Shown: in pieces, positions 28,502 through 58,138 of the stretch
Numbering within the stretch: the stretch's first letter is position 1
Layout: each line of letters begins with the position of its first letter
DNA from: Pseudomonas sp. KBW05
GTDB lineage: Bacteria > Pseudomonadota > Gammaproteobacteria > Pseudomonadales > Pseudomonadaceae
Direction of reading: 5' to 3'
DNA length: 64,000 nt
Assembly: GCF_003852405.1 (NCBI RefSeq)
Contig: NZ_QAJM01000018.1
Coordinates: 124,001 to 188,000 of the forward strand
Program-made: the position numbers and the translations under genes
The notes under the pieces: model-generated
Databases searched by the model: none
What the model was told of the DNA's origin: nothing
Seen by the model: only the letters and a program-made list of their open reading frames with translations

Positions 28502-29129
28502 TCTTTCTCCTCAGCTCTATTCGCCCATAGGTGGGCCGACCGTAACCGTTAAAATAGTCACCCTGTGCGCTATCTAATAACTTGGTAAATAATAGATTTG
28601 CACTGCCAACGTGTCCTCGAAGCTCAGGCTCGCCGGGATTAGGATCATTCTGATAGTTATAAAGAAGGCGGTATCCGTCAGCCTCATCGTGAACCAAGGC
28701 CGCAGTGATACTGTTTGAGCCCGATTGGTGAGTCTTCAAGCGCACTCTGATCTTGTCCCAGGTTTGACAGATATATACATCTGCTACCCAACTACGAATC
28801 GGATTTCCTCCGATGTCCAGTGTCGTTCCAGTGCAGTGCCACTCTCCCGACAGGTCAGGGACTTTTAGATATTTGACTGCCCAACGCCATTTCCAAACCG
28901 TCTTATTGAATAAAGCGTATAGCAAGGCAAAGACTATACCTGCGCCAATTAGCGACAGGGCTGTCGGTGGAAGATTTACAGGCAGATTATACTTTTTAGC
29001 CAAATCTTCAGCTGATAGCAGCAAAAAAACCGCAATGCCGGAAATCGCGCTTGCTAGTAGTGTCAGATACCTGCCAATCAAAGCTCGATTAACCCCGCCC
29101 AATAGGCTGTATTCATGATCGTGAATCAT
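28485..29129 (-). CDS. cap15: Cap15-like CBASS effector (two TM helices plus beta-barrel)
   Basis: A 214-residue protein with two membrane helices (about 19-39 and 55-75), a basic Trp-rich linker (VWKWRWAVKYLK), then a beta-rich domain starting PDLSGEWHCTG at about residue 91. This is the layout of S-2TMbeta / Cap15 effectors, whose barrel binds a cyclic dinucleotide and which then oligomerise and disrupt the inner membrane. The gene overlaps the CD-NTase-like gene by 17 bases, so the two are translated together. The start is ATG 29129, with AAGG upstream. Confidence 0.75.
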   Translation of the reverse strand: MIHDHEYSLLGGVNRALIGRYLTLLASAISGIAVFLLLSAEDLAKKYNLPVNLPPTALSLIGAGIVFALLYALFNKTVWKWRWAVKYLKVPDLSGEWHCTGTTLDIGGNPIRSWVADVYICQTWDKIRVRLKTHQSGSNSITAALVHDEADGYRLLYNYQNDPNPGEPELRGHVGSANLLFTKLLDSAQGDYFNGYGRPTYGRIELRRKNEHVN

Positions 29130-29224
29130 CAAAAGCGACCTTCAATAGACTTAATGCCGGGAATCCAATCAACTTTAACGAGGGGCAGCAGCAAAGCTGC
29201 CCGCGCCCGATGAGACTTTAAAAA

Positions 29225-31397: not shown

Positions 31398-33167
31398 ATG
31401 CACTCCTTGAGCAAAATACACATCAAGAACTTCCGCTCGTGCAAGCAAGTGTTTTTGCCTCTGGGTGATTTCACCCCACTGGTCGGTCAGAACAACGCGG
31501 GGAAATCCACCATCCTCGACGCGATCAGATTGGTGTTAGCACCAAAGGCATTTGCGAAAACAGACGCTAATGACCCCGGCCAGCCAATAATCATCAGCGC
31601 CTGCGTGTCAGGGATTACAGAAGAGCTGATTGCACAAATCCCTGAAGCCAAACATCAAGCCGCGATTACCCCCTACTGCATCAACGGTGACCTTTGGATA
31701 AGGATTTCCGCATCAGGCTCGACTAAACCGACTACGGAAGTCTGGGAAAATGCTGGTCTTGATGATCAAGGTCTTCCCACTTCCTGGCGCTCCTATCCCA
31801 CGGGCCTGCCTCAAGCCATTTCGGCATTGTTACCCGAAGCGCTGCACATCCGCGCCATGGATGATGTCCAGGAAGACTTGGGCAAAGGCAAAGCTGGGAG
31901 CACAATTCGTGGGCTACTGGATGAAATCATGGCCCCCATCCTCACTGCTCATCAAGAGGTACAGGATGCACTCACAGCGGTCAGGAATATATTGGGAGCC
32001 GACGGTGAGAACCGATCCCCTCTACTGACTGAGTTCGATACCAGCGCCACCAATGCCCTCTCAAGCTTCTTCCCTGGTTTGTTGCTAAACCTAGACGTAC
32101 CGTCAATCGACGTTAAGGAGTTTTTCAAGAGCGGTGATCTAAACGTGACCGATGAGATATCCGGTCAAACCAGACGCTTCGACACCTTAGGTAGTGGTGC
32201 GCAGCGTGCAATCCAGATGGCCCTAATCCGGCTTTTGGCCGATATCCGTAAAACACGCGATCAAGACCTTGCACGTCGCCTCCTACTGATCGATGAACCT
32301 GAGATTTTCCTCCACCCTCAAGGCGTCAGAGGCCTTAGGGAAGCACTAAATGTGCTTTCGAAATCTGGCTACCAAGTCGTGTTCACAACCCATTCGCCCT
32401 TGATGGTAAGCAGGGATAACGCGCCTGAGACGGTGATAGTGCGCAGATCTCGGGAGAATGGCTCCGAGGTTCGCATTCCGATGGGCGCGGCGGTTGCGCA
32501 AGCTATGGCAGAGGCACAAGCACAATCCCGAACCCTCTTTGAGCTCGGAAATATCGCTGAGATATATTTCGCTGAAAAGGTAATTCTCTGCGAGGGCAAA
32601 ACCGATCAGAGGCTACTCCCGCTCATCTACGAAAAGCTCTACGGGGTCAGGCCTGAGCTCGAACGGATCTGCTTTGTTGCTCTCGGTAGCTGTACTTCGA
32701 TTCCCAAAGGTTTTTCTGTCCTGACAGCAATGGGTATCAAATGCGGTGTGATCGCTGACTTAGATTTCGCATTCACTCACGCTAGGGGGCCATGGCTACC
32801 GAAGGAATGCGAGGAGATGGATAACGTCAGATCTGTGCTTCAAGTGGTCGGCCAAACTCAAGGGTTCCTCATCGGTGGAAACGGACTGCCACAGAATTCC
32901 AGAGGTAGCTCAGCAGCTGACTGTTGGGCTGCTTTTGCCAGAACTGCAGACGGCCAAGCGCTTGCTAATACTGCTCATGAGGCAATGAAAGTTTTTGCAA
33001 CCTGGGTCTGGCCAATGGGCTGCATTGAGGACGCATTGAGAATTGATGAGAAGGGAGAGGCAGCCATAATCGCTCAGGAAGACAATATCCGGAGCTGGCA
33101 ACCGGAGATAATTGATCAAGAGTATCCAGTTTTCCGAAGCACCCTAGATTGGATGCGGGCTATCTAA
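31398..33167 (+). CDS. OLD family ATPase with TOPRIM nuclease domain
   Basis: A 589-residue protein. The ATPase half has Walker A GQNNAGKST at residues 30-38, the signature-like TLGSGAQRAIQMALIR, Walker B LLLIDEPEIFLHPQG and the H-loop FTTHSPLM. The TOPRIM half has the glutamate in VILCEGKTD and the acidic pair in IADLDFAF. OLD proteins are ATP-dependent DNA nucleases that restrict phages. No UvrD-like helicase (GajB) adjoins it, so this is a class 1, single-gene OLD rather than Gabija. The gene lies in a defence-rich stretch. The nearest gene upstream is the 273-aa hypothetical protein. Confidence 0.88.
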   Translation: MHSLSKIHIKNFRSCKQVFLPLGDFTPLVGQNNAGKSTILDAIRLVLAPKAFAKTDANDPGQPIIISACVSGITEELIAQIPEAKHQAAITPYCINGDLWIRISASGSTKPTTEVWENAGLDDQGLPTSWRSYPTGLPQAISALLPEALHIRAMDDVQEDLGKGKAGSTIRGLLDEIMAPILTAHQEVQDALTAVRNILGADGENRSPLLTEFDTSATNALSSFFPGLLLNLDVPSIDVKEFFKSGDLNVTDEISGQTRRFDTLGSGAQRAIQMALIRLLADIRKTRDQDLARRLLLIDEPEIFLHPQGVRGLREALNVLSKSGYQVVFTTHSPLMVSRDNAPETVIVRRSRENGSEVRIPMGAAVAQAMAEAQAQSRTLFELGNIAEIYFAEKVILCEGKTDQRLLPLIYEKLYGVRPELERICFVALGSCTSIPKGFSVLTAMGIKCGVIADLDFAFTHARGPWLPKECEEMDNVRSVLQVVGQTQGFLIGGNGLPQNSRGSSAADCWAAFARTADGQALANTAHEAMKVFATWVWPMGCIEDALRIDEKGEAAIIAQEDNIRSWQPEIIDQEYPVFRSTLDWMRAI

Positions 33168-38181: not shown

Positions 38182-39465
38182 ATGCTGATTGCCGTATTGA
38201 TCTTTATCGCCACCATCGTCCTTGTTATCTGGCAGCCAAAGGGGCTTGGGGTTGGCTGGAGTGCGATGTTCGGTGCCATCGTGGCGTTGCTGGCAGGCGT
38301 CGTTACCCTCGCAGACATACCCGAGGTTTGGCGCATCGTCTGGAATGCCACTGGGACTTTCATCGCGGTCATCATCATTAGTCTGCTGCTTGATGAGGCA
38401 GGCTTTTTCAAATGGGCTGCGCTGCATGTGGCCCAGTGGGGAGGCGGGAGCACCCGCAAGCTGTTCGCTTTTATCGTCCTGCTGGGCGCAGCGGTGTCGG
38501 CCCTGTTCGCCAATGACGGAGCAGCATTGATCCTCACACCCATTGTGATCGCGATGTTGCTGGCGTTGCGTTTTTCGCCTGCTGCTACGTTGGCATTCGT
38601 TATGGCAGCCGGTTTTATCGCCGATACGGCGAGCTTACCGCTGGTGGTTTCCAACCTGGTCAACATCGTTTCTGCCGACTATTTCGATATCGGCTTCAAC
38701 GAATATGCTTCGATCATGGTGCCGGTAAACATCGTCAGCGTGGCGGCGACATTAGCCATGCTGCTGTGGTTTTTCCGCAAAGATTTACCAAAGACCTATG
38801 ACCTCAACCAACTGGACAATCCGGACGAGGCAATCCACGACCGAGCCACTTTTGTTGCCGGCTGGTGGGTGCTGGCACTACTCCTGATCGGCTTCTTTGT
38901 CATTGAGCCATTGGGGGTACCAATCAGCGCCATTGCAGCGGTCTGTGCATTCATTCTTTACGTCATCGCGGCTCGTGGTCACGCCATCAACACAAGCAAG
39001 GTGCTCAAAGAGGCACCATGGCAGGTGGTGATTTTTTCTTTGGGTATGTATCTGGTTGTTTATGGCCTGAAGAACGCCGGCCTGACCGACCACATCGCGC
39101 AGATCCTGAACGTGTTCGCCGATTATGGCGTTTGGGGCGCGTCCCTAGGTACAGGACTGCTAACAGCGTTGCTGTCTTCGATCATGAACAACATGCCCAC
39201 CGTTCTGGTAGGCGCCTTATCCATTCATGCCGCCGAAGTCGATGGTGTAGTCCAGCAAGCGATGATTTACGCCAACATCATCGGCTGCGACTTGGGCCCG
39301 AAGATCACCCCAATTGGGAGCTTGGCAACTCTGTTGTGGCTGCATGTGCTCGCACGGAAAAACATAACGATCAGCTGGGGTTACTACTTCAAGACCGGGA
39401 TCGTGCTGACCTTGCCTATCCTCGTCGCCACATTGTCCGCCCTGGCACTGCGCCTCAGTTTCTGA
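38182..39465 (+). CDS. arsB: Arsenite efflux permease ArsB
   Basis: A 427-residue polytopic inner-membrane protein with about 12 helices. Conserved blocks of the ArsB/NhaD group are present: [36 protein letters not shown] and [20 protein letters not shown]. It extrudes arsenite or antimonite with the proton gradient; no arsA ATPase is present, so it would act alone. It follows arsR by 24 bases. Confidence 0.95.
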
Positions 39466-39481
39466 ATCAAGGAATCGTCTG

Positions 39482-39952
39482 ATGAAAGTCTTGTTCATGT
39501 GCACCCACAACAGCTGCCGCAGCATTCTGTCCGAGGCGCTTTTCAACCACTTGGCGCCCGAGGGTGTAGAAGCGGTCAGCTCAGGAAGCTTTCCCAGTGG
39601 CCGGGTGAATCAACGGGCATTGCAAACGCTTGAGGCGGCGGGTATCTCCACTGCGGGCTTGAGCAGCAAGGCTTCGGATGCTTTTGAAGGCTCGCCTCCA
39701 GACATCGTGATCACTGTCTGTGACCGGGCAGCGGGTGAGGCATGCCCAATCTTCTTTGGGCCAGCTTTGAAGGCGCATTGGGGTCTGGCCGACCCGTCTG
39801 ACGCTAGCGGGTCGGAAGCCGAGATCACCGCAGCGTTCGAAACCACACTGGCCAAAATTCACGAGCGCGTGAGCGCATTTCTTGCGCTGCCAATGAAGAC
39901 CATGAGCGCTGACCAGCTAAAAGCTGAACTGAATCGCATCGGTTCGCTTTAA
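39482..39952 (+). CDS. arsC: Second thioredoxin-type arsenate reductase
   Basis: A 156-residue protein of the LMW phosphatase fold with the loop CTHNSCRS near residue 7 and the Cys pair in [11 protein letters not shown]. Compared with the gene at 37382 it has a longer C-terminal tail and a slightly different loop (CTHNSCR versus CVANSVR), so the two are diverged, not recent copies. AAGGAATC precedes the ATG, 16 bases after arsB. Confidence 0.88.
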
Positions 39953-39999
39953 AGATCAACCGAGGCGGTGCCCAATCTGGCGCCGCCGTAGGAGTTTAT

Positions 40000-40713
40000 A
40001 TGCAAGACACATTGCCGAACGTACACGCCGACCTGATCGACATTCCGTCGCTGGAGCAACTGGAGCCGCGTACACCGTCGCTCCATAAGCCTCGAATCTT
40101 GCTTCTGTATGGATCGACGCGAGAGCGCTCTTTCAGCCGGTTGGTGACTCAGGAAGCAGCCCGCTTGTTGGAGGAGTTCGGCGCCGAAACCAAAATCTTC
40201 GATCCCTCGGGTTTGCCGCTGCCGGATGATGCTCCGGATACACATCCCAAAGTCGCGGAATTGCGCGAACTCATGCAATGGTCTGAAGGACAGGTGTGGT
40301 GTTCGCCTGAGCGGCACGGCTCCATGAGCGCAGTATTCAAGGCCCAGATCGACTGGGTTCCGCTTGCGATTGGTGCTGTTCGACCTACGCAAGGAAAGAC
40401 CCTTGCAGTAATGCAGGTCTGTGGTGGCTCGCAATCTTTCAATGTGGTCAACCAACTACGGGTATTGGGGCGGTGGATGCGCATGTTCACCATCCCAAAT
40501 CAATCTTCGGTGGCCAAGGCGTTCACCGAGTTCGACGAGGCAGGCCGTATGAAACCGTCCTCGTACTACGACCGACTGGTGGACGTGATGGAAGAGTTGA
40601 TGAAGTTCACGCTGCTGTTGCGGGGTCGCCAGGACTACTTGGTTGATCGCTACTCCGAGCGAAAAGAGTTAGCTGAAGAGCTGTCCAAGCGCGTCAACCA
40701 GCGCTCCATTTAA
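40000..40713 (+). CDS. arsH: ArsH, NADPH-dependent organoarsenical oxidase
   Basis: A 237-residue flavodoxin-like FMN protein. The FMN loop [10 protein letters not shown] and the [20 protein letters not shown] segment are characteristic of ArsH. It oxidises trivalent methylated arsenicals to the less toxic pentavalent form using NADPH. GGAG precedes the ATG. Confidence 0.95.
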
Positions 40714-40732
40714 CTCACCGCGAGGAAACGGT

Positions 40733-41155
40733 ATGAGTCAGATCACGATCTATCACAACCCGCAATGTGGCACCTCTCGCAACACCTTGGAGCTGATCCG
40801 CAACAGCGGAGAAGAGCCGACTGTTATTGAGTACCTACAGACCCCACCTGACCGCACCACGCTTGTCAGGTTGATCAAGGATATGGGTATTGAGGTGCGG
40901 GCCCTGCTTCGTATTAAAGGCACTCCCTACGAGGAGCTAGGACTCGGCGATACGTCACTGACTGATGACCAGCTCATCGATGCCATGATCGCTCATCCCA
41001 TCCTGATCAATCGCCCCATCGTCGTGACGCCTTTGGGCACACGCTTGTGTCGTCCGTCAGAGGCAGTCCTCGACCTTCTGCCGCAGGAGCAGCGCGGCAG
41101 CTTCGTCAAAGAAGACGGACAAGTCGTCATTGATGAGAATGGCCGCAGGGTTTAA
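40733..41155 (+). CDS. arsC: Arsenate reductase, glutaredoxin type
   Basis: A 140-residue protein of the plasmid R773 ArsC family, structurally unrelated to the two LMW types in this operon. The catalytic Cys is in NPQCGTSRNTLELI near residue 12, and the conserved Arg residues follow in IKGTPYEELGL and RLCRPSE. It uses glutathione and glutaredoxin to reduce arsenate. GAGGAAAC lies ahead of the ATG. Confidence 0.93.
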   Translation: MSQITIYHNPQCGTSRNTLELIRNSGEEPTVIEYLQTPPDRTTLVRLIKDMGIEVRALLRIKGTPYEELGLGDTSLTDDQLIDAMIAHPILINRPIVVTPLGTRLCRPSEAVLDLLPQEQRGSFVKEDGQVVIDENGRRV

Positions 41156-41310
41156 ACCGATGTAAAGCAGATGGGCCTGGAGGCATGAGGCCTAATTGCC
41201 GGCTGACCAACGGCAGCTTTAGCATGTTCAACAGATGATCGAGATCAGATTAGATTCGTTCTTGGGTCTCTATACTGGCGACAGTTCAGCAGCGACTTAA
41301 GGTTTCCCCC

Positions 41311-42390
41311 ATGACTCATTCGGCCAGTGACAAACTAGATGTAGTCATTATCGGCGGGGGGCAGTCAGCCTTGGCGGTAGCGTATTTCCTACGCCGAACT
41401 CAACTTTCATTCGTTATCCTCGATGCGGAGGAAGAACCCGGTGGTGCCTGGCGACACGGCTGGAATTCGCTACGTCTATTCTCTCCGGCCACTTGGAGTT
41501 CGATCCCTGGCTGGATGATGCCCCCCACGCAAGAGGGTTATCCTTCGCGCAACCATGTGGTCGACTATCTCAACCAATACGAACAGCGCTACCAATTCCC
41601 GGTCGAGCGCCCGGTTCGGGTCACTTCTGTCGAGCGTAAGGAATCTGGCCTGCGAGTACGCTCTGACGACAAATATTGGGATGCCAAGATTGTAATCAGC
41701 GCTACCGGCACTTGGAGCAATCCGTATATCCCTCACTACCCTGATGCCGAGTTATTCGCCGGTCGGCAATTGCATTCCGCGAACTATGTCGATGCACAAG
41801 CGTTTGCTGGCAAGAAAGTTTTGGTGGTGGGTGGTGGCAATTCAGGAGCGCAGATTTTGGCAGAAGTCTCCAAGGTCGCTGAGACCACTTGGTTGACTCC
41901 TACTGAGCCGGTGTTTTTGCCTGATGAAGTGGATGGGCGGGTGCTATTCGAACGTGCCACTCAGCGCTTGAAAGCTCAGCAGGAGGGGCGTGTCATTGAT
42001 CAGCCCGTCGGCGGGTTGGGAGACATTGTCATGGTGCCGCCGGTTGTAGAAGCCCGTGAACGTGAAGCTCTAAAATCTGTACGTCCATTTGAAAGTTTCA
42101 CTCGCGAAGGCGTTATTTGGGCCGATGGATCTGAGTCTGCCGTGGATGTGGTGATCTGGTGTACCGGATTTAGACCAGCCCTCGAGCATCTAGATACGCT
42201 GGGGGTGATCAACACCGAAGGCCGTGTTGAGGTCGAAGGCACTCATTCGATCCAAGAGCCAAGACTATGGCTGGTGGGCTATGGCGAGTGGACAGGTTCG
42301 GCTTCTGCGACGCTGATCGGTGTAACACGGACAGCGCGCAGCACAGTCAATGAGATTGCAACCTTTCTTGGCGATCCGTCCGCAGCCTAG
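41311..42390 (+). CDS. arsO: ArsO, flavin-binding monooxygenase-like protein
   Basis: A 359-residue two-dinucleotide protein. The FAD site is [15 protein letters not shown] and the NAD(P) site is [13 protein letters not shown]; the C-terminal half shows [17 protein letters not shown] and [17 protein letters not shown]. Such putative monooxygenases cluster with ars genes (ArsO) and are thought to act on organoarsenicals; the reaction is not firmly known. A decayed second copy of its C-terminal part lies at 43769. Confidence 0.85.
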
Positions 42391-42417
42391 TACACCTACG
42401 CTTGAGGAGTAGTGGAC

Positions 42418-43455
42418 ATGAACGAAATGATTGTGCGCTGGCCTGAGCGGAATCCCCGCATGTTTTTAGCGGTAGCAGCGCTTGTCTGGTTCGGATTGTA
42501 CGAAGCCCTTATTCCTGTTTCAGAGGCTTTGGTCGCAGCGCTTCCAGTTGATCGGAATAGCCACCTTGGAGGCGCCTTACAGTTTTTTTTCTACGACACT
42601 CCCAAAGTGCTGATGCTGTTGGCCGGCATTGTGTTCTTGATGGGCATGCTCAACTCCCACTTCACACCTGAACGCACCCGCGCAATGTTGGCTGGGCGAA
42701 GCGAGGGCACAGCCAATGTGATGGCTGCCTCTCTCGGGGTGTTTACCCCATTTTGCTCGTGCTCAGCAGTTCCTCTTTTTATAGGTTTTGTTCAAGCTGG
42801 AGTGCCCCTGGGGGTGACGTTCTCTTTCCTCATTGCTGCGCCCATGGTGAATGAGGTCGCGCTGACACTGCTGCTTGGCTTGTTCGGCTGGAAAGTTGCG
42901 TTGCTGTATCTCAGCCTAGGGTTGTTTATTGCGATTGTGGCTGGCTGGGTCATTGGCCGCCTGAAAATGGAGGCCTATCTGGAAGATTGGGTTCGTGACA
43001 TGCCCAGGATCCAGGCAACTGCCGGGGACACCCGCATGCCCCTGTATGAGCGGATAAGTGCCGGGTTTGGCAGCGTGCGTGAAATCGTCGGAAAAGTCTG
43101 GCCTTACATCCTCGCCGGTATTGCCATTGGCGCGGGCATTCACGGGTATGTGCCAGAGGATTTCATGGCCAGTTTCATGGGCAAGGAAGCCTGGTGGTCG
43201 GTTCCGCTCGCGGTTCTTATCGGCATCCCCATGTATACCAATGCGGCAGGCATCATCCCCATTGTGCAGGCACTACTCGCAAAGGGCGCGGCACTGGGCA
43301 CTGTGCTGGCCTTCATGATGAGTGTCATCGCTCTATCTCTTCCGGAGATGGTGATTTTGCGCAAGGTGCTTAAAGTTCGCCTGATAGCCACCTTCATTGG
43401 GGTCGTCGCCGTCGGCATTCTCATCGTTGGTTACGTCTTCAACTTCGCTTTGTAA
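42418..43455 (+). CDS. arsP: ArsP, organoarsenical efflux permease
   Basis: A 345-residue polytopic membrane protein of the DUF318/permease family. The central FTPFCSCSAVPLFIGF with its CSC core, FLIAAPMVNEVAL and the IPMYTNAAGIIPI motif are diagnostic. ArsP exports trivalent organoarsenicals. The ATG at 42418 is better spaced from GAGGAG (42404-42409) than the GTG at 42412. It ends 19 bases before the thioredoxin-like gene. Confidence 0.93.
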   Translation: MNEMIVRWPERNPRMFLAVAALVWFGLYEALIPVSEALVAALPVDRNSHLGGALQFFFYDTPKVLMLLAGIVFLMGMLNSHFTPERTRAMLAGRSEGTANVMAASLGVFTPFCSCSAVPLFIGFVQAGVPLGVTFSFLIAAPMVNEVALTLLLGLFGWKVALLYLSLGLFIAIVAGWVIGRLKMEAYLEDWVRDMPRIQATAGDTRMPLYERISAGFGSVREIVGKVWPYILAGIAIGAGIHGYVPEDFMASFMGKEAWWSVPLAVLIGIPMYTNAAGIIPIVQALLAKGAALGTVLAFMMSVIALSLPEMVILRKVLKVRLIATFIGVVAVGILIVGYVFNFAL

Positions 43456-46028: not shown

Positions 46029-46510
46029 GGCATGCTTACTGATGAACGAAGGCGCCAAAGCCAACGACTTCAGCAACTGCGCGCCTAGGGCGTCATTCAT
46101 AGCCGCCGTGATACCGTTTTATGTCGACAAGCCCACCCGCTTCCAACCAGGGCTAATATTCAAAAACGCGCTCCCTACCTAGCTCTATCTTAAAGCTCAG
46201 CGGGTGCAAAGCTGAGCGGTGGATCGTAATCGACACCAGCTTTCCTATATACTGTCGGTTCTGTTTACCCTTGAGCTACAGGAACACCAGCATGACTGTA
46301 CTCCAAACGATCTACTGGCAGCCTACGCCGCCTTAGCGCTACGCCCCCTCGCAATACCTCGCTCCGCCAGCTCCGCTCGCGGCTGCGTACTGCTGTGTGA
46401 CCGGTTCCTACACCCTAAGCACTCATCGAACAATCCTCACAATTTGAATTCGTATCGACACGCTCGCCTTTTGTCTGGCCGGCATGTGGTGCATTGCCTT
46501 GGATATTTCT
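46029..46510. other. Intergenic region ahead of the first SulP gene
   Basis: A 482-base stretch. A GCTCAGC/GCTGAGC stem lies at 46195-46217. A 14-codon frame starts at about 46291 (ATG after AGGAACACC) and could be a leader peptide, but nothing else supports it. Other long frames here are out-of-frame readings that run into the SulP gene. Confidence 0.4.
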
Positions 46511-47998
46511 ATGCTGCAAACACTCAAACAAACTTGGCTTTCCAACATCCGTGGAGACGTCCTCGCGGGGATAGTGGTCGCGCTTGCGCTGATCCCGGAA
46601 GCAATCGCCTTTTCCATAATCGCCGGCGTCGACCCCAAGGTCGGTCTCTACGCTTCCTTCTGTATCTGCGCCGTCATTGCCTTCGTCGGTGGTCGCCCTG
46701 GGATGATCTCGGCAGCTACCGGTGCTATGGCATTGTTGATGGTTACACTGGTGAAAGATCACGGGCTTCAGTATCTGCTGGCAGCTACGTTGCTCTGTGG
46801 GGTGCTCCAAATCCTCGCGGGTTACCTGAAGCTAGGTTCGCTGATGCGCTTTGTCTCGCGCTCAGTAGTCACAGGCTTTGTGAATGCACTGGCGATTCTG
46901 ATTTTCATGGCGCAGCTGCCCGAACTCACCAACGTCACCTGGCATGTCTACGCCATGACCGCAGCGGGCCTGGGAATCATCTACCTGTTTCCGTATATAC
47001 CGAAGATCGGCAAGCTGATTCCTTCGCCGCTGGTGTGCATCCTGACACTGACCGCTATCGCGATTTACCTGGGGTTGGATATCCGCACCGTAGGTGACAT
47101 GGGCCAGTTGCCAGACACGCTGCCAATCTTCTTGTGGCCTGAAGTCCCGCTGAACTTTGAAACCCTGCGTATCATTTTCCCGTATTCAGCTGCCTTGGCT
47201 GTAGTCGGTTTGCTTGAGTCCATGATGACGGCGACCATCGTCGATGATTTGACCGATACCACCAGCAACAAGAACCGCGAATGCAAAGGTCAAGGGGTTG
47301 CAAACATTGCATCTGGCCTGCTGGGTGGTATGGCCGGCTGCGCCATGATTGGCCAGTCAATCATCAACGTGAAGTCTGGTGGTCGTACTCGCCTTTCAAC
47401 TTTATGCGCAGGCATCTTCTTGCTATTGATGGTCGTGTTCCTGGGGGAATGGCTCTCCAAGATCCCAATGGCCGCATTGGTAGCCGTGATGATCATGGTC
47501 TCCATCGGCACTTTTAGCTGGGATTCCCTGCGCAATCTTAAAGAGCACCCACTGTCGACCAACATCGTCATGGTTGCGACTGTCGTGGTGGTCGTCGCGA
47601 CGCATAACCTGGCCTACGGTGTACTGGTGGGAGTGCTGCTGGCATCGCTGTTCTTTGCGAACAAGGTCGGACACTACCTCGATATTAAGAGCACGCTTGA
47701 AGAAACGAAGTCTCACCGAACTTACCGTGTGGTGGGCCAGGTGTTCTTCAGCTCATCAGACAAATTCACCGACGTTTTTGACTTCAAGGAAGCCCTGAAC
47801 AAAGTCACCATCGACCTGACCCAGGCCCATTTCTGGGACATCACTTCGGTTGCAGCGCTGGACAAGGTAGTCATCAAGTTCCGTCGCGAAGGTTCAGAGG
47901 TTGAGGTGCTGGGCCTGAACGAAGCCAGCGCTACTATCGTTGACCGTTTTGGCGTGCATGACAAACCTGACGCCATCGACAAACTTATGAGCCACTAA
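46511..47998 (+). CDS. SulP family anion transporter with STAS domain, copy 1
   Basis: A 495-residue SLC26/SulP protein. About 10-14 membrane helices span residues 1-400 ([58 protein letters not shown]). The C-terminal STAS domain (about 410-490) ends in [20 protein letters not shown]. SulP proteins carry bicarbonate, sulfate or other anions. The Usp gene follows after 11 bases, so the two form an operon. By eye about nine residues in ten agree with the second copy at 55766, yet this copy uses GC-rich codons. Start ATG 46511 is chosen to match copy 2. Confidence 0.92.
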
Positions 47999-48009
47999 GG
48001 AGATTGACA

Positions 48010-48861
48010 ATGACCCACGTAATGGCATGCATTGATAACTCACAATCCTCGCTGGCGGTCTGCGACTACTCAGCATGGGCGTCGCAACGACTTAGCGCGC
48101 CACTTACCTTGCTGCATGTTTTGGATGAGGGGAAATACCCAGCATCTGCAGACCTGAGCGGCAACATCGGTCTTGGCAGTCGAGAGCATCTGCTGGATGA
48201 GCTGGCCACGCTAGATGCGCAGCGTGCCAAACTGGCCTTGGAGCATGGCCAGCACATGCTTGAAAAGGCTCGCGAGCGGACAGTCAGCTCTGGCGTCATT
48301 TCACCTGATCTGAAGCAGCGCCACGGTCATCTCGTCGAGAGCCTGAATGATCTTCAGGACGATATTCGATTACTGGTGATTGGAAGGGTTGGCGAAGATA
48401 GCGCTCATAGTACCGAAAGCCTTGGAAGTCAGATTGAAGCGGTAGTCAGAACTATCCATCGTCCTATCTTGATTACAACCAGCCAATTTAAAAAACCTGA
48501 AGCCGTCATGGTTGCATTTGACGGAAGCGCTATTGGCCACAAGACCTTGTTGACGCTTGCTGCAAGCCCGTTGTGCAAAGGCTTACCAATTCATATCGTT
48601 ATGGTTGGAGCAGATTCTCACGATAATCAGAACGAACTCGAGAAAGCAAGAAGTGTACTTGCCTCATCCGGCCTGACAGTTCAGACCGAAATCCGGCCAG
48701 GCGAAGTTGAGTCAGTTCTGCATGCCTATCAAGCCGAGCACGCCATTGACCTCCTAGTCATGGGAGCCTACGGGCATTCACGTATCCGGCAGTTTCTGGT
48801 AGGCAGCACAACTACAACAATGTTGCGAACGGCAACTATACCGGTACTATTGCTTCGCTAA
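48010..48861 (+). CDS. Universal stress protein, tandem Usp domains, copy 1
   Basis: A 283-residue cytosolic protein made of two Usp domains (about 1-145 and 155-283). The C-terminal domain has an intact ATP-binding loop, G-x2-G-x9-G-S, in GAYGHSRIRQFLVGS. Tandem Usp proteins support survival in stationary phase and under oxidant or osmotic stress. It starts 11 bases after SulP, with AAGGAGATT as binding site, so it is co-translated with it. Confidence 0.9.
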   Translation: MTHVMACIDNSQSSLAVCDYSAWASQRLSAPLTLLHVLDEGKYPASADLSGNIGLGSREHLLDELATLDAQRAKLALEHGQHMLEKARERTVSSGVISPDLKQRHGHLVESLNDLQDDIRLLVIGRVGEDSAHSTESLGSQIEAVVRTIHRPILITTSQFKKPEAVMVAFDGSAIGHKTLLTLAASPLCKGLPIHIVMVGADSHDNQNELEKARSVLASSGLTVQTEIRPGEVESVLHAYQAEHAIDLLVMGAYGHSRIRQFLVGSTTTTMLRTATIPVLLLR

Positions 48862-50177: not shown

Positions 50178-50755
50178 CGCTAATCTCGCTTCTGATACTT
50201 CGTAAGTCCTGCATCATTACTTTCACCGCATAAATGAACTTTCAAACCGTCAAGGTAAAGCAGATATAACATTTTAGACAATCTAGAAACCTTGCAGCAC
50301 CTGAAAACAGATGCGGAGGCGGCCAATTGAAATCAGACCACGACAGAAACGAAATGTTAGAAAAACATGACAGCGCGCGGCAGAGCTGATGTGAGTTTAG
50401 GGGGAGAGTTTAAGCGTATGGGAACAATTCGTAGAATGAGGAATAGATGTCTACTGTCGGCCACAAGGAGAGGCTCTGCCCATCCTGGCAAAGAGTAAAA
50501 AGCCCTCGACAAAAAAAGCTTATAAAACAGAATGTTATGTCAGATCTTTATCTTAACATCTCCTTGGCGGCCACCTTTAAATTGTCATCATTCCTTTTTT
50601 AGCGTATGGTAACAGCCGTACGAAAAATCAAATAAACTGCAAAAGAATGGCAGACACCAATGTATATTTCTACTAAAAGCTCTTTAGCGGAGCGTAAAGC
50701 GCCATAGCGTCACCTCGCCCAAGCCTTTCAATTCTTGGTTCGCGAGAGGATACCT
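50178..50755. other. AT-rich divergent intergenic region
   Basis: The 578 bases between the MFS gene and the PNPase-like gene hold no recognised gene. GAGAGGATACCT at 50744-50755 is the ribosome binding site of the PNPase-like gene. The length would allow a leader RNA, as housekeeping pnp is controlled through its leader, but no clear stem was found. Confidence 0.4.
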
Positions 50756-52828
50756 ATGAGCAGTTCTAGCAAGCGTTTTAGCTTTGGCGAACATCCGGTT
50801 TTCATTGAACTCGGATCGACCGCTGAACATACTGGTTCGCCAGTGATGGTTCATGTTGGACAAAGCGTCGTTCTGGCCACTTGTCATGTGCCGCCCCCTT
50901 CTTTTCAGTCTCGCCCACCAGGCTTAGTGGTCTCATTTGTAGAGCGAAGCTATGCACGTGGCCGAATTCCCGATGATTCACATATCCACCAAACCGAGAT
51001 CAACAAAGTAGAGGAAAGCAGATCTCTAGAACTCCAATCAGTGCTAAACGACACCCTCCCCGACAAACACGAATTAAGAATAGAGTTAAACATCCTAGTC
51101 TTTTCACGTGACCCTCAAGTCGATCCAATTGTCGCAGCTGTCATTGCAGCAAGCTGTGCGCTAGGAATTACTTTGCCGCAGCATGCAGACCCTATAGTTT
51201 TGGCGCGCTTAGCGAAAATAAATGGCGTCTTCTGCACTAACCCTAGTAATAGCGCGATTGAAAAATCGCAGTGCGACTTGTGGGTGTACGGAAGTTCTTC
51301 GCAGACCATTCAAGTGCGCGGCATTACTAATGAACTTGATGAATTAGAGTTGATTTGTGCAATTGAGGCTGGGCAGAGAGATATTCATAAAACAAGCAGC
51401 TCGATAAAAGAATGGATCCTGGAACACTCACCCAGTAGTAAGAGTTTCGCAAAAACTGTCGAAACAACACTAAAAAGAAAAGTTGCTGCGCTTGCTAAAA
51501 CATCACTGATGAAGCTTTTTCAGGAAAATTTGAAAAAAGATCTTTCAAACCAGTTAAGTGATCTACAAAAAGCGGTGGAGATAGCGATCTGCATTAACGA
51601 AATTGATGGAAGCCGGAAAGAGATAATCGCCGTTTACTTCTACCAATGCGTACAGGAGACTCTTAGGGAATATTATTTAAATGCAGTGTCATCAAGTGAC
51701 ATCCATGCAACTCTTCATACGAGAAAAATTAAAACCCACTTATTTCCAAGAGCCCATGGATCTGCCAGTTATACGACTGGAGATCATAGCGCGATTGCGC
51801 TCACGACCTTGGGTAGAGATCGCTCTTCCTTGAATGGTCAGTATACTGAAGCAAAGAACAGCTTTGATGTCCATATTCATAACTCTCCAGATGATGCAGG
51901 CGCGAGATACCCAATTCCTAATCATGCTTTAAATGCCGGACGCTGGGTAGCCGATACCTTGAGGTTTGTGCTACCAAAGTTAGATATGTTCCCCTACGTA
52001 ATCCATGTAGATGTAGAGCCAGTTGGGAGGCATTCATGCTCGCCAGATGAAATTTTGTGCACAGCAATGCTATCTATGTTAGACGCAGGAGTGCCGCTAT
52101 TTTCTGTTGTCGGCGCGGTAGAGGTGGGTTTAATTTGTTCACCCTCCCAACTTGTTCCGCTGATTGATCCCGACGATTTTGAAAGAGCATCTTGCAATGT
52201 CGTTGCCACAATTGCTGGGACAATGACTGGTATTGCTGGAATTAATTTGCGAAGCAAAACACTTCTCACAAGAGATATATTGCAAGAGTTGTTAAGTAAT
52301 GCTAAGCAAGCGCGCCTTTCTTTGATTGCACTTATGAAAGAGTGTGTTGCCTTTCCGAGAGAGCTGAGTGAGTTTGCACCTAGAGTACAAATCCTGAAGA
52401 TATCATCACGGAAAACCGGGCAATTAGTTGGCCGTGGCGGAAGCGTTGTAAAAGCAATCTGCCAGCAGACTTATAGCAATGTTGAGGTTTTTCCAGACGG
52501 AACCGTTCGAGTCAGTGCAAGTAATGATGATAGTCTGCAAAACGCGATCCTCGCAATTCAGAAAACACTTAAGCCACTTAAGCCCGGTCAAATTTTTGAG
52601 GGTGTGGTGAGCGGTATACAGGCGAATGGTGTACTGGTTAATTTGTCTCCCGGACGTGAAGGCTTTCTCCCTCTCGAGCAATTAATAAATACACATGTCC
52701 CAGTAAGAGAGCAATTTAAGATAGGGGAATGCATTCGTGTAGTGTGCCAATCAGTCAATCACCATGGTCAAGGCCAACTGTCTGTCAAGGCGTTACATCC
52801 TGAGATCACTAGGAATCGCGGATACTGA
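50756..52828 (+). CDS. PNPase-like protein with a degenerate catalytic site
   Basis: A 690-residue protein with the full PNPase order: RNase PH 1 (about 1-215), helical linker, RNase PH 2 (about 315-540), KH (about 545-600) and S1 (about 605-690). KH keeps a GxxG loop (VGRGGSVVKAI) and S1 looks normal. The catalytic core is eroded: where canonical PNPase has D-x5-D-x-K (E. coli Asp486, Asp492, Lys494) residues ~477-485 read RASCNVVAT; the SNGSSSMAS phosphate loop reads RHSCSPDEI; the FF-RR and KRRE segments are also lost. It is probably an RNA-binding pseudoenzyme. Start ATG 50756 has GAGAGGA upstream. sthA follows after 59 bases. Confidence 0.85.
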   Translation: MSSSSKRFSFGEHPVFIELGSTAEHTGSPVMVHVGQSVVLATCHVPPPSFQSRPPGLVVSFVERSYARGRIPDDSHIHQTEINKVEESRSLELQSVLNDTLPDKHELRIELNILVFSRDPQVDPIVAAVIAASCALGITLPQHADPIVLARLAKINGVFCTNPSNSAIEKSQCDLWVYGSSSQTIQVRGITNELDELELICAIEAGQRDIHKTSSSIKEWILEHSPSSKSFAKTVETTLKRKVAALAKTSLMKLFQENLKKDLSNQLSDLQKAVEIAICINEIDGSRKEIIAVYFYQCVQETLREYYLNAVSSSDIHATLHTRKIKTHLFPRAHGSASYTTGDHSAIALTTLGRDRSSLNGQYTEAKNSFDVHIHNSPDDAGARYPIPNHALNAGRWVADTLRFVLPKLDMFPYVIHVDVEPVGRHSCSPDEILCTAMLSMLDAGVPLFSVVGAVEVGLICSPSQLVPLIDPDDFERASCNVVATIAGTMTGIAGINLRSKTLLTRDILQELLSNAKQARLSLIALMKECVAFPRELSEFAPRVQILKISSRKTGQLVGRGGSVVKAICQQTYSNVEVFPDGTVRVSASNDDSLQNAILAIQKTLKPLKPGQIFEGVVSGIQANGVLVNLSPGREGFLPLEQLINTHVPVREQFKIGECIRVVCQSVNHHGQGQLSVKALHPEITRNRGY

Positions 52829-52887: not shown

Positions 52888-54282
52888 GTGGCAGTTTACA
52901 ATTATGACGTTGTCATTGTAGGTTCAGGCCCGGCAGGAGAAGGTGCTGCCATGAACTCGGCAAAAAATGGCCGCAAAGTAGCTGTTGTGGATAGCCGCGC
53001 TCAGGTTGGTGGTAACTGCACCCACCTTGGTACTATTCCCTCAAAAGCTTTGCGACATTCCGTTCGACAAATAATGCAGTTCAACACCAATCCCATGTTT
53101 AGACAAATTGGTGAGCCACGCTGGTTCTCGTTTCCAGACGTATTAAAAAGTGCGGAACAAGTCATAACTAAGCAGGTCGCCTCACGCACAAGCTATTACG
53201 CTCGCAATCGGGTCGATACTTTCTTTGGTATAGCAAGTTTCGTAGACGAACAAACTTTAAATGTAATTGGTGCTGGCGGTGAAGTAGAAACGCTAATAGC
53301 TAAGGAAGTTGTGATAGCTACAGGGTCTCGCCCCTACCATCCGGCGGATGTAGATTTCTCCCATGCGCGAATATACGACAGCGATTCAATTCTGAGTCTT
53401 AATCATACGCCTCGTAAGCTAATTATTTATGGCGCGGGGGTGATTGGGTGTGAGTATGCGTCAATATTTAGCGGGCTAGGAGTGATGGTTGAATTAATTG
53501 ACAACCGTGAACAACTACTTAGTTTTCTAGATGATGAAATTTCCGATGCTCTAAGCTACCATCTTCGGAATAATAACGTTTTAATCCGTCACAACGAGGA
53601 GTACGCGAGCATTGAGGTATTTGATAGCTCCGTCATCCTACACTTGAAATCCGGCAAAAAAATCAAGGCGGACGCATTGCTTTGGTGTAACGGACGCTCA
53701 GGAAATACTGAGGATCTCATGCTCGAAAATATTGGGATCGAAGCCAATAGCCGTGGTCAAATTCAAGTTGACCAAGACTATCGTACGGAAGTCCCCAATA
53801 TCTTTGCTGCCGGGGATGTGATTGGTTGGCCCAGCCTCGCTAGTGCTGCCTATGACCAGGGACGCTCGGCTGCTGAGAATCTGATTGAAAGCGGAAGTTG
53901 GAGGTTCGTTAATGACGTACCTACCGGTATCTACACCATCCCCGAGATCAGCTCGGTAGGGAAAAACGAGCGGGAACTAACTGACGCCAAAATACCTTAT
54001 GAAGTAGGTAAAGCCTTTTTCAAATCTATGGCGCGTGCACAAATTGCCGTTGAACCGGTAGGCATGCTGAAAATTCTATTTCACCGAGATACCTTAGAAG
54101 TGTTAGGTGTACATTGCTTTGGCTATCAAGCAGCAGAAATCGTCCATATTGGACAGGCAATTATGAATCAACGTAGGTCGGCAAATACTTTGAAATATTT
54201 CGTCAATACGACGTTCAATTATCCAACCATGGCAGAGGCTTATCGAGTCGCCGCGTTCGACGGACTCAGTAGGCTTTTTTAA
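52888..54282 (+). CDS. sthA: Soluble pyridine nucleotide transhydrogenase SthA
   Basis: A 464-residue FAD flavoprotein of the disulfide reductase superfamily. The N-terminus [40 protein letters not shown] (no redox-active Cys pair, as in SthA), [17 protein letters not shown] and the C-terminal [17 protein letters not shown] are hallmark SthA sequences. It reoxidises NADPH with NAD+. Housekeeping sthA lies elsewhere in Pseudomonas, so this is probably a second copy. The start is GTG 52888 after a strong GAGGAGG. Codons are AT-rich, like those of its neighbours. Confidence 0.93.
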
Positions 54283-54402
54283 TTTCGTGTAAAGCCGGAG
54301 GAAACCCTAGCGAGGAGGTTAACCGAATGTAGATTAATGATTTAGACTTTGCCCGATACGTTCCTAGATTTCCCCTAATGGTGCCAAATAAGAGGAATGA
54401 TA

Positions 54403-54984
54403 ATGCGTAGACTAACTTTTAAATCTCCCAGACAAGATCTCCTAGCTAGACAGCAGTTACTTGGCAATCTGTTAAATCGACTTGAAGTTGAGGGTTCCAA
54501 TCGATCATTCAATACGATACTTGAAAGCAGAAGTTTTCAGCTTGAGCCTGACGAGCGCTACTGGCTATCTAATGCAACCTACACGCAGCTAATTCTTGAG
54601 CATAATAGTCTCTGTTCAGCGCTGAGCCACCAGTCATCCAGCGCCCAAATTCGAAGCACTCGCTGTCAGCAGTCTTCACTAAAAGTATCAGACCCGGAAG
54701 ATAAGTCGTTAATTCCCACTCTGGAGAACTCTGATTGTCTCATAGTCCCTGGCAGAATTTATCATGGGCACGTGTTCAGTTTAGAGGTAGGTTTCGCTTG
54801 TATTTCATTACCATATGGATGTTATGGAACGCTGCGGCTATCTGAGGTTGCCGAGCAACCGTTAGGTCAGCTTTATGAATATCTAAGCTTGGGAGACTCG
54901 CTATCTGTGAGAGTCACCAATATTGACTATAGAGGTCAAATTAGTCTCAGCATGAGAGGCATACCGGAGGATTCTTCCAAATGA
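54403..54984 (+). CDS. Small S1-domain RNA-binding protein
   Basis: A 193-residue protein. The C-terminal third is an S1/OB domain (VPGRIYHGHVFSLEVGFACI, then YGTLRLSEVA, ending LSVRVTNIDYRGQISLSMRG). The N-terminal ~110 residues are polar and not recognised. The S1 region echoes the S1 domain of the PNPase-like protein two genes upstream, so both may bind the same RNAs. Start ATG 54403 is better spaced from GAGG than the ATG at 54397. Confidence 0.75.
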   Translation: MRRLTFKSPRQDLLARQQLLGNLLNRLEVEGSNRSFNTILESRSFQLEPDERYWLSNATYTQLILEHNSLCSALSHQSSSAQIRSTRCQQSSLKVSDPEDKSLIPTLENSDCLIVPGRIYHGHVFSLEVGFACISLPYGCYGTLRLSEVAEQPLGQLYEYLSLGDSLSVRVTNIDYRGQISLSMRGIPEDSSK

Positions 54985-55175
54985 CTTATGCGTACAAGAA
55001 AAAATGGACATTCAGACGTCAGGGTTCAACGTTGGTCATTAAAATTTTGACCATATTCGAAAATTTACTCCCTAAGGCGATGAGGAATATGTTAAAATTT
55101 TGGCAAATTCAATGTCAGGCGATACGAAGACACATGATGAATTTCTGCTCCCTTCTGGTTGTTAGTCCACCTTAG
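54981..55175 (+). CDS. Possible small basic protein (64 aa)
   Basis: A 64-codon frame whose ATG overlaps the TGA of the S1-domain gene (ATGA), which favours coupled translation. The product is rich in Lys and Arg (YAYKKKWTFRRQ; IRRH) with hydrophobic stretches. No family is known. It may be a chance frame in AT-rich DNA. Confidence 0.3.
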   Translation: MTYAYKKKWTFRRQGSTLVIKILTIFENLLPKAMRNMLKFWQIQCQAIRRHMMNFCSLLVVSPP

Positions 55176-55765
55176 ACAGCCATCCCCCTCGCTTTAGCGC
55201 CGCACGTTTGCATTTTACAATGCAGGCTTTTTGGCACTCCGCCGTCGCCACGCACGACGGTAATTTTACACGTCGCCTGATCACCACCCAATCGATGCTG
55301 TTCGTTGTCTGCTGAGTAGCCTGGTATTTATCTGGAAGTCATATTCAGCAGCTAACCACTGATGCATTCCGACGCATGGTGTATTTGGGGCTTTGAAATG
55401 GGGGGCTAATGCCGCCAATTTTAAGTTTTACTCTAATGCGTCACCGGCCTTGCTTAATGCATAGTCGGGACGCGCTGGTGCGTACCGGATTCATAACAAA
55501 ACTCGGTATTCCGCCTTAGTGAGGCAGGCCCACTTCTAAACTTAAGCTCACTGTTGCGTTCCCGTTGAGCACTGGTGCACAGCTAATTTTAGAAATAGGG
55601 CTTTTACCACCCAATGAAATCAGATCAGGCTTTTGGCCTCGACCTGCTACCCTCTTATTACTTGATTAAAAGCCAAATACCATGTAGTTAAAATTTAACC
55701 TAAATACTCAAAGGCAACTTTCTTAACGAGTAGCCAATTATTAATGTATCTGTACGGAAAATCGA
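55176..55765. other. Gene-free region before the second SulP gene
   Basis: The 590 bases hold no gene I can support. A CCGTCG/CGACGG stem followed by TAATTTTA at 55242-55268 may terminate the pnp-like/sthA/S1 unit. Otherwise no repeat, REP or operator was seen. Its AT content matches the genes on both sides. Confidence 0.4.
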
Positions 55766-57253
55766 ATGCTTCAAACAATAAAGCAATCTTGGCTGTCCAA
55801 TATAAGAGGCGATTTATTGGCCGGTATAGTCGTAGCCCTTGCGCTGATTCCAGAGGCAATAGCATTTTCGATCATCGCCGGGGTCGATCCGAAAGTGGGT
55901 CTCTACGCTTCATTCTGTATATCAGTGGTCATTGCCTTCGTAGGCGGACGGCCAGGTATGATTACCGCCGCCACAGGCGCGATGGCGCTATTAATGGTAA
56001 CTTTAGTAAAAGATCATGGGCTTCAATATCTCCTTGCTACGACGTTACTGACTGGTGTACTGCAGATTGTTGCTGGATATTTGAAACTTGGAAGCTTGAT
56101 GCGGTTTGTTTCCCGCTCTGTGGTGACAGGTTTCGTTAACGCGTTAGCCATCCTGATTTTCATGGCTCAGCTCCCAGAATTAACTAATGTTACATGGCAA
56201 GTGTATGCGATGACGTTGGCGGGGTTGGGCATCATTTATCTGTTTCCCTATGTACCTAAGATTGGAAAGCTTCTCCCATCTCCCCTTGCATGCATCATCG
56301 TACTCACCGCTGTTGCTATATACCTTGGACTTGATATTCGTACCGTAGGAGACATGGGTTCGTTACCAGATACTCTGCCATTCTTCCTTTGGCCGGATGT
56401 ACCGCTCAATTTTGAAACCTTGGCGATCATCTTTCCTTACTCAGCAGCTCTTGCAGTGGTCGGCCTGTTAGAGTCAATGATGACGGCGACAATTATTGAC
56501 GACCTAACTGATACACCGAGTAACAAAAACCGGGAGTGTAAAGGCCAGGGGATTGCAAATATCGCATCTGGACTTTTGGGTGGTATGGCTGGATGTGCAA
56601 TGATCGGCCAGTCAATTATTAATGTGAAGTCTGGAGGACGTACAAGGCTGTCATCTCTGGCAGCGGGCGTTTTCCTGTTGCTTATGGTGGTATTCTTGGG
56701 CGAGTGGCTGGCACAAATCCCTATGGCTGCGCTGGTCGCTGTGATGATTATGGTGGCAATAGGAACCTTCAGTTGGGACTCATTGCGCAACCTTAAAAAG
56801 CATCCGTTATCCACCAATATTGTTATGGTGGCCACCGTGGTAGTGGTTGTCGCAACACACAACCTCGCTTACGGGGTGCTGGTGGGTGTATTGCTTGCAG
56901 CAATGTTTTTTGCCAACAAAATCGGCCATTACATGTACGTTAGTTCTGAAGCCGACGAAAACGGGATCGAGCGTAAGTATTCTGTGGTTGGTCAAGTTTT
57001 TTTCAACTCTGCAGATAAATTTGTTGATTCGTTTGACTTCAAGGAAGCTTTGGAGAAAGTTGTCATTGATCTCTCCTTTGCACACTTTTGGGACATCACA
57101 GCAGTTGCTGCGTTGGACAAAGTCGTCATCAAATTCAGGCGTGAAGGTACAGAGGTTGAGGTGCTGGGCCTTAATGAGGCAAGCGCGACTATCGTTGACC
57201 GTTTCGGAGTCCACGATAAGCCTGACGCTATCGATCAATTGATGGGGCACTGA
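55766..57253 (+). CDS. SulP family anion transporter with STAS domain, copy 2
   Basis: A 495-residue SulP protein, the same length as copy 1 at 46511 and about nine-tenths identical by eye through the membrane part, with most change in the linker before STAS ([15 protein letters not shown] against [15 protein letters not shown]). It uses AT-rich synonymous codons unlike copy 1, so the two copies came from different backgrounds or split long ago. A Usp gene follows after 15 bases, repeating the copy 1 arrangement. Confidence 0.92.
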
Positions 57254-57268
57254 TTCATGGAGAACTCA

Positions 57269-58138
57269 ATGACTCACGTAATGGCCTGCATTGATGGCTC
57301 AGCGTCGTCAACTGCAGTATGTGATTACGCTGCATGGGCAAGTGTTCGTCTCGCTGCCCCGTTGACGTTTTTACACGCATTGACGAAAGAATGTGCGCCT
57401 CCTTCTGATCTAAGCGGGACACTTAGTATCGGTATTCGAGATCGGCTCTTGCAAGAACTTGCAAAGCTCGATGAACAACGTAATACCTTGGCAAAAGAGC
57501 ATGGCGATTATTTGCTTGAGGCGGCGAAGCATCGTGTAGACCAACTGGGTATCGTGCACCCCCAAGGACGGCAACGCCATGGAAAATTGGTTAATTGCAT
57601 TCAAGAAATTGAAAGCGAAATCAAACTGTTGATTATTGGCCGAAACGGAGACACCAGCGGAGCACCAGGAGAGCGCGTTGGGTTGGGAGTAGAGAATGTC
57701 ATTCTGACACTTAATTGTCCTGTGCTCGTTACGCCGTCCCAGTTCAATATACCCCGAAGCTTCTTAATCGTTTTCGATGGGAGCGAGACCGACTGTAAAA
57801 CAGTTGAGGCCATAGCGCATAGCCCTTTTTTGAAGGGTATAAAATGCCACCTCTTGATGATCGACGCAGAGTCTGATACTGCATGGAGTCAAGTGGATTG
57901 GGCAAGGAACTTATTACAGAATAATAACTTTACCGTGCAGGCTGAAGTGATGCCCGGTGAGTATGAAATCGTTATTGAACGTTATTGTGAACAAGAAAAA
58001 ATAGATATATTGGTGATGAGCACTTGCGGAAATTCGAAAATCCAAGGGTTTTTCGTCGGTAACATAATAAGCAGAACCCTACGTAGCACGGCAATTCCTA
58101 TGCTGTTCTTACCTAGCTACTTGCCAACTCGAAGGTGA
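57269..58138 (+). CDS. Universal stress protein, tandem Usp domains, copy 2
   Basis: A 289-residue tandem Usp protein related to copy 1 but more diverged than the SulP pair. The ATP loop of the C-terminal domain is altered: S-T-C-G-N-S-K-I-Q-G-F-F-V-G-N against G-x2-G-x9-G-S, so the first Gly and the Ser are lost and ATP binding may be weak. Start ATG 57269 has GGAG six bases upstream and aligns with copy 1; an ATG at 57257 is in frame. Confidence 0.88.
   Translation: MTHVMACIDGSASSTAVCDYAAWASVRLAAPLTFLHALTKECAPPSDLSGTLSIGIRDRLLQELAKLDEQRNTLAKEHGDYLLEAAKHRVDQLGIVHPQGRQRHGKLVNCIQEIESEIKLLIIGRNGDTSGAPGERVGLGVENVILTLNCPVLVTPSQFNIPRSFLIVFDGSETDCKTVEAIAHSPFLKGIKCHLLMIDAESDTAWSQVDWARNLLQNNNFTVQAEVMPGEYEIVIERYCEQEKIDILVMSTCGNSKIQGFFVGNIISRTLRSTAIPMLFLPSYLPTRR

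Follow-up and report, generated by a model that had tools for sequence, protein, structure and literature searches.

pnpL of Pseudomonas sp. KBW05, a PNPase relative predicted to be catalytically dead and constrained chiefly in its KH domain

The gene that we name pnpL encodes a protein that, judging by its sequence, descends from PNPase and is almost certainly a dead enzyme, given that the phosphorolytic site of its second RNase PH domain is gone from the aligned residues. Within the pnpL family the pattern of constraint is inverted, the KH domain being the best-kept domain, unlike what is seen between pairs of PNPases, and a KH-centred RNA-binding role of PnpL is likely from the residues conserved. 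Coordinates below are those of the window, that is, the whole 64,000-nucleotide stretch of KBW05 DNA that was analysed.

50756..52828, + strand: pnpL (name given here), predicted 690-aa PNPase-derived pseudoenzyme (open frame, full-length TIGR03591 alignment, orthologues)

The pnpL frame has no internal stop. A TTG at 50735, seven codons upstream, is an alternative start, and the ATG at 50756 is favoured over it because an AGAGGA ribosome-binding site precedes the ATG and the orthologues begin with MSxS too. The protein aligns with the NCBIfam PNPase model TIGR03591 over residues 10-679 at 306.3 bits, below the cut-off of 525.05; both complete orthologues also score below it (316.1 and 299.2 bits), while the housekeeping PNPase of KBW05 (G000:C15:38742-40802; 27% identity to PnpL) scores 1053.8. 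The best solved-structure matches of PnpL are PNPases (7ogk, 3cdi), and Pfam detects RNase_PH in two stretches, RNase_PH_C, KH and S1. An earlier reading of the DNA made from sequence only had described all five PNPase domains as kept; both RNase PH domains, KH and S1 are indeed recognised by Pfam, but the claim of five depends on the full-length alignment, because the linker PF03726 is undetected in the window protein and was found only in the orthologue of genome G591. PnpL therefore resembles PNPase (TIGR03591; E. coli Pnp) in domain order, full-length match and the GxxG of the KH domain, and it differs in its sub-threshold score, in the replacement of the metal site, the phosphate loop and the KRREIGHG segment, in the shift of constraint to KH and in a leader predicted to bury its start. 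The setting is also different, since pnpL stands before a transhydrogenase gene (sth) whereas the genome's own PNPase has an S15 leader (RF00114) upstream.

Three complete copies of pnpL are known, those of the window, of the Antarctic strain Pseudomonas sp. ANT_H12B (PMC10149013; genome G476), with 80% identity, and of G591, with 37%, and the same three genomes are the only ones among 399 of the genus sample with a match that reaches E 1e-76. When 398 genomes of the family were searched with a profile, the window genome (G000), G591 and a C-terminal half of pnpL in genome G886 came out above the range of housekeeping PNPases, the G886 contig ending in sequence that matches IS3-family transposase genes. 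Samples of the order (293 genomes), class (369) and phylum (319) gave no further match above that range, and 76 relatives of G591 together with 56 genomes of the genus of G886 yielded no pnpL beyond the G591 and G886 copies themselves. These samples overlap and mostly two or three first-look candidates were scored per genome, so that the counts do not prove the absence of pnpL elsewhere. As for the other matches, all nine of the order sample and 29 of the 40 of the class sample are among the 79 PNPases used for comparison below (78 loci fetched as best matches to PnpL plus that of E. coli, whose numbering we follow), and the five that were examined out of 14 from the phylum sample carry the three motifs intact. 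One relative has its housekeeping PNPase matched in two adjacent pieces (G034:C1:1868449-1870511), possibly owing to a frameshift or a sequencing error.

A tblastn search with PnpL gave matches in 44 records of plasmids and 21 of phages, none of them reaching 60% identity; the matches listed (44 plasmid, 20 phage) have 23-30% identity, and those with a named feature are annotated as PNPase. Searched with the G591 protein, plasmids likewise gave 44 records below 60%, the eight matches listed having 27.5-27.9%. Viral contigs gave no match in two scans with pnpL queries and one with the housekeeping protein, and a scan with the housekeeping profile matched four relatives. Among GTDB r220 contigs a single-sequence scan gave no match, and a three-row profile found ANT_H12B and one relative with 27% identity, an ordinary PNPase that is among the 79. 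In a tree with the 79 PNPases the three pnpL rows form one group (SH-aLRT 100), and the branches reach 10 changes per site, a length at which the tree does not place the source of pnpL.

The positions at which the catalytic segments of PNPase would be expected are as follows.

50978..50998, + strand: position of the FFRR aperture loop (residues 75-81), replaced (alignment)
51917..51943, + strand: position of KRREIGHG (R398, R399, H403), replaced (alignment)
52028..52054, + strand: position of the phosphate loop SNGSSSMAS, replaced (alignment)
52184..52210, + strand: position of the metal site D486-K494, now R...V.T (alignment)

Residues D486, D492, K494, S437, S439, R398, R399 and H403 are present in 79 of 79 PNPases. 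The first three coordinate the metal in E. coli PNPase (PMC2723993), and their loss is common to all four pnpL members: in the order window, ANT_H12B, G591 and G886, D486 has become R, K, R and R, D492 V, V, T and V, and K494 T throughout. S439 is replaced by P, P, K and R. At the KRREIGHG segment the row of G886 runs into the insertion sequence and was left out of the counts; in the remaining three, in the same order, H403 reads A, A and T, R398 reads N, T and A, and R399 reads H, R and V, that is, it is lost in two of three, ANT_H12B having an aligned R. Remnants of the site are S438 in three of the four members and S437 in ANT_H12B. The first RNase PH domain of PNPases is not known to be catalytic either. 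The aperture phenylalanines F77 and F78 are missing from all three complete members, and R79-R80-E81 is retained in G591. The alignment with the 79 PNPases thus confirms the earlier observation that the metal site, the SNGSSSMAS loop and the arginine-rich segment are replaced in the window protein. We looked for catalytic residues intact elsewhere in the alignment, and for homologues with a conserved site beside which this copy would merely be decaying, and found neither; no orthologue has an intact site, and the loss is shared within the pnpL family (the metal site in four of four). The proposal of a pseudoenzyme is strongly supported at the level of sequence, the loss being family-wide and accompanied by purifying selection.

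Between the window and ANT_H12B the dN/dS of pnpL is 0.18. Among the neighbouring genes, compared in the same pair, the SulP genes have values of 0.028 and 0.024 and the Usp genes 0.066 and 0.155; sth has 0.066, cfa 0.062 and an MFS gene 0.094, and only an S1-like ORF exceeds pnpL (0.275). pnpL evolves faster than most of its neighbours, yet it is under clear purifying selection. Neither relaxed selection nor generally broken frames, as would be expected of a decaying pseudogene, were found, given this dN/dS, three intact frames and one copy broken by an insertion sequence.

The strongest constraint falls on the KH domain.

52376..52570, + strand: KH domain (residues 541-605), best-kept domain of the protein (domain identities, shuffle test, PNPase pair comparison)

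Its GxxG motif, which had been described as intact, is so, reading GRGG in the window protein and in two further members and GRAG in G886. The window and ANT_H12B proteins are identical at 64 of 65 KH residues, while 14 of 31 four-fold sites differ, and in a test that shuffled the differences over the length of the protein, a 65-residue stretch with one change or fewer arose in only 7 of 20,000 shuffles. The KH domain of the window protein is 63% identical to that of G591 and 71% to that of G886, as against 29-40% to the distant members for the first RNase PH domain, the middle part, the second RNase PH domain (38-40%) and S1. Subtracting the identity of the second RNase PH domain from that of KH gives +0.20, +0.25, +0.29, +0.31 and +0.10 for the five of six pnpL pairs computed, whereas the 3,081 pairs of the 79 PNPases have a mean of -0.14 and a maximum of +0.12, with KH above the second RNase PH domain in 116; the lowest pnpL value, that of the G591-G886 pair (+0.10), lies inside the PNPase range. 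This move of constraint to KH is the main reason for which we place the function there. Two lysines of the domain are changed in all four members, K566 to G and K571 to R.

The S1 domain presents another picture.

52571..52825, + strand: S1-type domain, three near-invariant residues lost (Pfam, residue alignment)

The fold is recognised by Pfam (31.2 bits, cut-off 22), and to that extent the S1 domain is preserved as the sequence-only reading had it, but F635, F638 and H650, which 79, 78 and 79 of the 79 PNPases respectively retain, are gone from all four members. We take these residues to be part of the S1 RNA-binding face. The earlier suggestion of RNA binding is accordingly supported for KH, with its GxxG and its constraint, and not for S1. 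The residues named for the mode in which E. coli PNPase serves as a carrier of sRNA with Hfq include K566, R658, R681, Q682, R684 and R686 (PMC8294330). R658 is present in 79 of 79 PNPases and lost in all four pnpL members, R684 is present in 78 of 79 and lost in three of four. R681, Q682, R684 and R686 read H, H, Q and Q in the window protein, a loop that is weak evidence because R681 is an arginine in only 10 of the 79 PNPases; among the carrier residues other than K566, K571 and R658 (K657, R681, Q682, R684 and R686), several vary among PNPases too. The strand that contacts RNase E in E. coli (327-331) is highly variable across the PNPase alignment.

Upstream of pnpL lies a leader with two conserved elements.

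50637..50653, + strand: leader box CTGCAAAAGAATGGCAG, a 17-mer of the form CTGC-N9-GCAG (identical in G000, G476 and G591, one place each)
50702..50758, + strand: leader hairpin predicted to pair across the ribosome-binding site and the start codon (folding, covariance model)

The box stands 103-109 nt from the start codon in the three genomes. The last 150 nt before the pnpL start are 91% identical between the window and ANT_H12B, against 75% for the rest of the intergenic region, and the G591 leader, although it aligns poorly overall, retains the exact 17-mer and the hairpin before the start. The predicted pairings are CATAG with CTATG, which contains the start codon, and, next to the ribosome-binding site, CTCGC with GCGAG. 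The start codon used in G591 comes immediately after its CTATG, and the pairing is kept despite the moved start. Folded alone, the hairpins of the three genomes have z-scores of -3.95, -4.57 and -3.06, with none of 200 shuffles as stable in each case, while longer leader pieces (149-163 nt) are of unremarkable stability (-0.80, -1.25 and -1.86). The alignment contains one compensatory pair, and one pair is broken in G591. Covariation of the hairpin is unsupported, since the pair counts in three sequences do not exceed those of shuffles (166 of 500 do at least as well); the RNAalifold covariation term is unfavourable (+0.56, from an alignment with a misplaced end gap). The hairpin also overlaps the ribosome-binding site and the start codon, both constrained anyway, and the leader is not the sole conserved non-coding stretch, 60-nt windows near 55111-55211 having 0.93-0.98 identity against 0.95-0.97 for the leader. 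These windows belong to the intergenic region between the S1-like ORF and the second SulP gene (54985-55765), where 60-nt windows reach 98% identity to ANT_H12B.

A regulon sharing the pnpL leader was sought and none was found: the 17-mer, with one mismatch allowed, occurs in six genomes only at pnpL leaders, and a covariance model run on eight genomes, with up to 150 first-look candidates each, recovered only the three leaders from which it was built. The exact 17-mer box is also present in six viral contigs, and no plasmid record matches the pnpL leader DNA. No promoter is assigned to pnpL, because the promoter scan did not exceed its shuffled background (7 sites against 9.2); nor did the terminator scan (3 against 5.3). 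An imperfect 18-nt direct repeat (89%) lies upstream of pnpL at 50409-50426 and 50597-50614, a third, less similar copy (72%) being found where the gene starts, and may be due to chance.

The surroundings of pnpL differ in composition from the beginning of the window, with a GC content of 0.44-0.48 at 48-58 kb against 0.60-0.63 for the greater part of the initial 26 kb. Two genes follow it closely.

52888..54282, + strand: sth paralogue, a Si-specific transhydrogenase (after pnpL in four of four members)
54397..54984, + strand: S1-like ORF (21.7 bits, cut-off 22; after sth in three of four members)

The island Sth of the window shares 81-83% identity with the second Sth found in each of eight genomes, and for this reason looks native to the group. 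The S1-like ORF may encode another protein of this gene block that has degenerated. Its counterpart in G886 (L094 6664-7251) has a weak DksA/TraR zinc finger, the cysteines of which are missing from the window and ANT_H12B proteins. Genes for SulP, Usp and cyclopropane synthase (cfa) are found within about 20 kb of pnpL in all four members. On either side of the pnpL block the window has a SulP-Usp gene pair (46484-48861 and 55766-58138, + strand), and in G591 a gene for a GroEL-family chaperonin stands some genes further downstream than pnpL-sth (L064 14894-16519). The second SulP has about 90% identity to Pseudomonas and Shewanella plasmid copies (best ten of 2,150), and there is an integrase-family gene downstream; an acquired island fits these plasmid-borne relatives and the integrase-family gene. 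pnpL and sth are thus apparently located on an acquired, low-GC island of stress genes.

Our preferred reading, which we regard as moderately probable, is that PnpL is a catalytically dead, KH-centred RNA-binding protein with leader-gated and perhaps feedback-controlled translation, encoded beside sth on an acquired stress island. Since selection keeps chiefly the KH domain, an RNA-binding regulator is the most likely function; PnpL would act through KH, with the degenerate RNase PH core presumably serving as a scaffold. The leader hairpin would hide the ribosome-binding site and the start codon and so gate the translation of pnpL, and PnpL, or another factor, would probably open or lock it. 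The simplest guess would be a feedback loop in which PnpL acts at its own leader and so regulates itself; E. coli PNPase offers the analogy, as its autoregulation through the pnp 5' UTR requires the KH and S1 domains (PMC2723993). RNA targets, an oligomer and a role in stress are what we infer beyond this. A bolder version, which we put forward tentatively and find rather doubtful, is that the island turned PNPase into a pure RNA-binding regulator, with a dead RNase PH ring carrying a crown of three KH domains that reads RNA specifically, the protein controlling its own mRNA, and perhaps stress mRNAs of the island or host, through the box and the hairpin; if true, it would be a self-regulating bacterial pseudo-exoribonuclease.

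Other explanations have to be weighed against this. It was proposed that PnpL could compete with PNPase, and, given its full-length PNPase architecture and the presence of a housekeeping PNPase in the same genome, it might join or compete with that enzyme, either as part of mixed trimers or at RNase E, and slow RNA decay under stress. However, the two proteins share only 27% identity and the contacts would have to come from the core domains, which within the pnpL family are conserved least of all, and we consider such joining or competition improbable. A dedicated RNA protector or sRNA carrier, in which KH-S1 holds RNA and never degrades it, seems to us no less improbable: the strongly kept KH domain would suit it, a non-degrading carrier mode with Hfq exists in E. 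coli PNPase (PMC8294330) and a KH-S1 fragment of the P. aeruginosa enzyme binds RsmY/Z (PMC4773659), but the carrier residues are mostly gone (K566 is G in four of four, R658 lost in four of four, R684 in three of four) and the S1 domain is without F635, F638 and H650.

The old site could also have become a different active or ligand-binding site, as might be suggested by the retention of E485, the R or K at 486 and the change of G489 to C, each in four of four members. We hold this to be quite unlikely, since the second RNase PH domain is poorly conserved in the family (38-40% in distant members) and no known motif was recognised at the site. The least credible reading is that of a decaying paralogue carried along on the island. 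The dN/dS of 0.18, against 0.02-0.16 for seven of the eight neighbours, and the one copy in four broken by an insertion sequence would be in its favour, but a value far below 1, three intact frames, a nearly unchanged KH domain and a leader conserved out to the orthologue with 37% identity make it very improbable.

A search of the literature on PNPase paralogues and inactive PNPases, judged by title and the start of the abstract, brought up no report of an inactive bacterial PNPase paralogue among the matches listed. A known likeness is the exosome core of yeast and animals, an RNase PH fold that has lost phosphorolysis (PMC5735172); it is, however, a eukaryotic nine-subunit core with hydrolytic nucleases, while PnpL is a single PNPase-type chain, bacterial, with no known partner nuclease. 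The complex of E. coli PNPase with Hfq and sRNA resembles what we propose in its non-degrading use of the KH-S1 portal (PMC8294330), but there the carrier is a temporary mode of an active enzyme, and most of the named contacts are absent in PnpL. If confirmed, PnpL would be a natural protein in which the RNA binding of PNPase is separated from degradation, with which it could be tested how far sRNA protection and autoregulation depend on KH-S1 binding alone, and it would be a case of an acquired island bringing its own post-transcriptional regulator.

No fitting island was found, by title and the start of the abstract, among the matches listed for comparable islands. The fluoride-resistance island GI3 of Enterobacter cloacae FRM is similar in being acquired and in combining a fluoride riboswitch with Usp and additional copies of housekeeping enzymes, but no PNPase relative appears in its description, in the part of the source available (PMC5533749). 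Fluoride riboswitches (RF01734) lie 13-15 kb downstream of pnpL in two members. That of KBW05, beyond the window and about 15 kb after pnpL (L065 3090-6083, G000:C10), precedes crcB, DUF190, pyrophosphatase and NhaA-type antiporter genes, and the other is in ANT_H12B (L067 3855-3916; checked for the riboswitch only). In G591 and G886 the sequence covered around pnpL contained none that scored above threshold. As the riboswitch accompanies pnpL in two of four members only, fluoride is not claimed as the function of pnpL. The window also contains, near the drop in GC, a CBASS-like pair of an oligonucleotide cyclase and a Cap15-type two-transmembrane effector (27374-29132, - strand), then an OLD-family nuclease with a full-length match to the PADLOC 'Old' model (31398-33167, + strand) and an arsenic-resistance cassette of ArsB, an NADPH-dependent FMN reductase-type protein and an ArsP-type permease (38182-43455, + strand).
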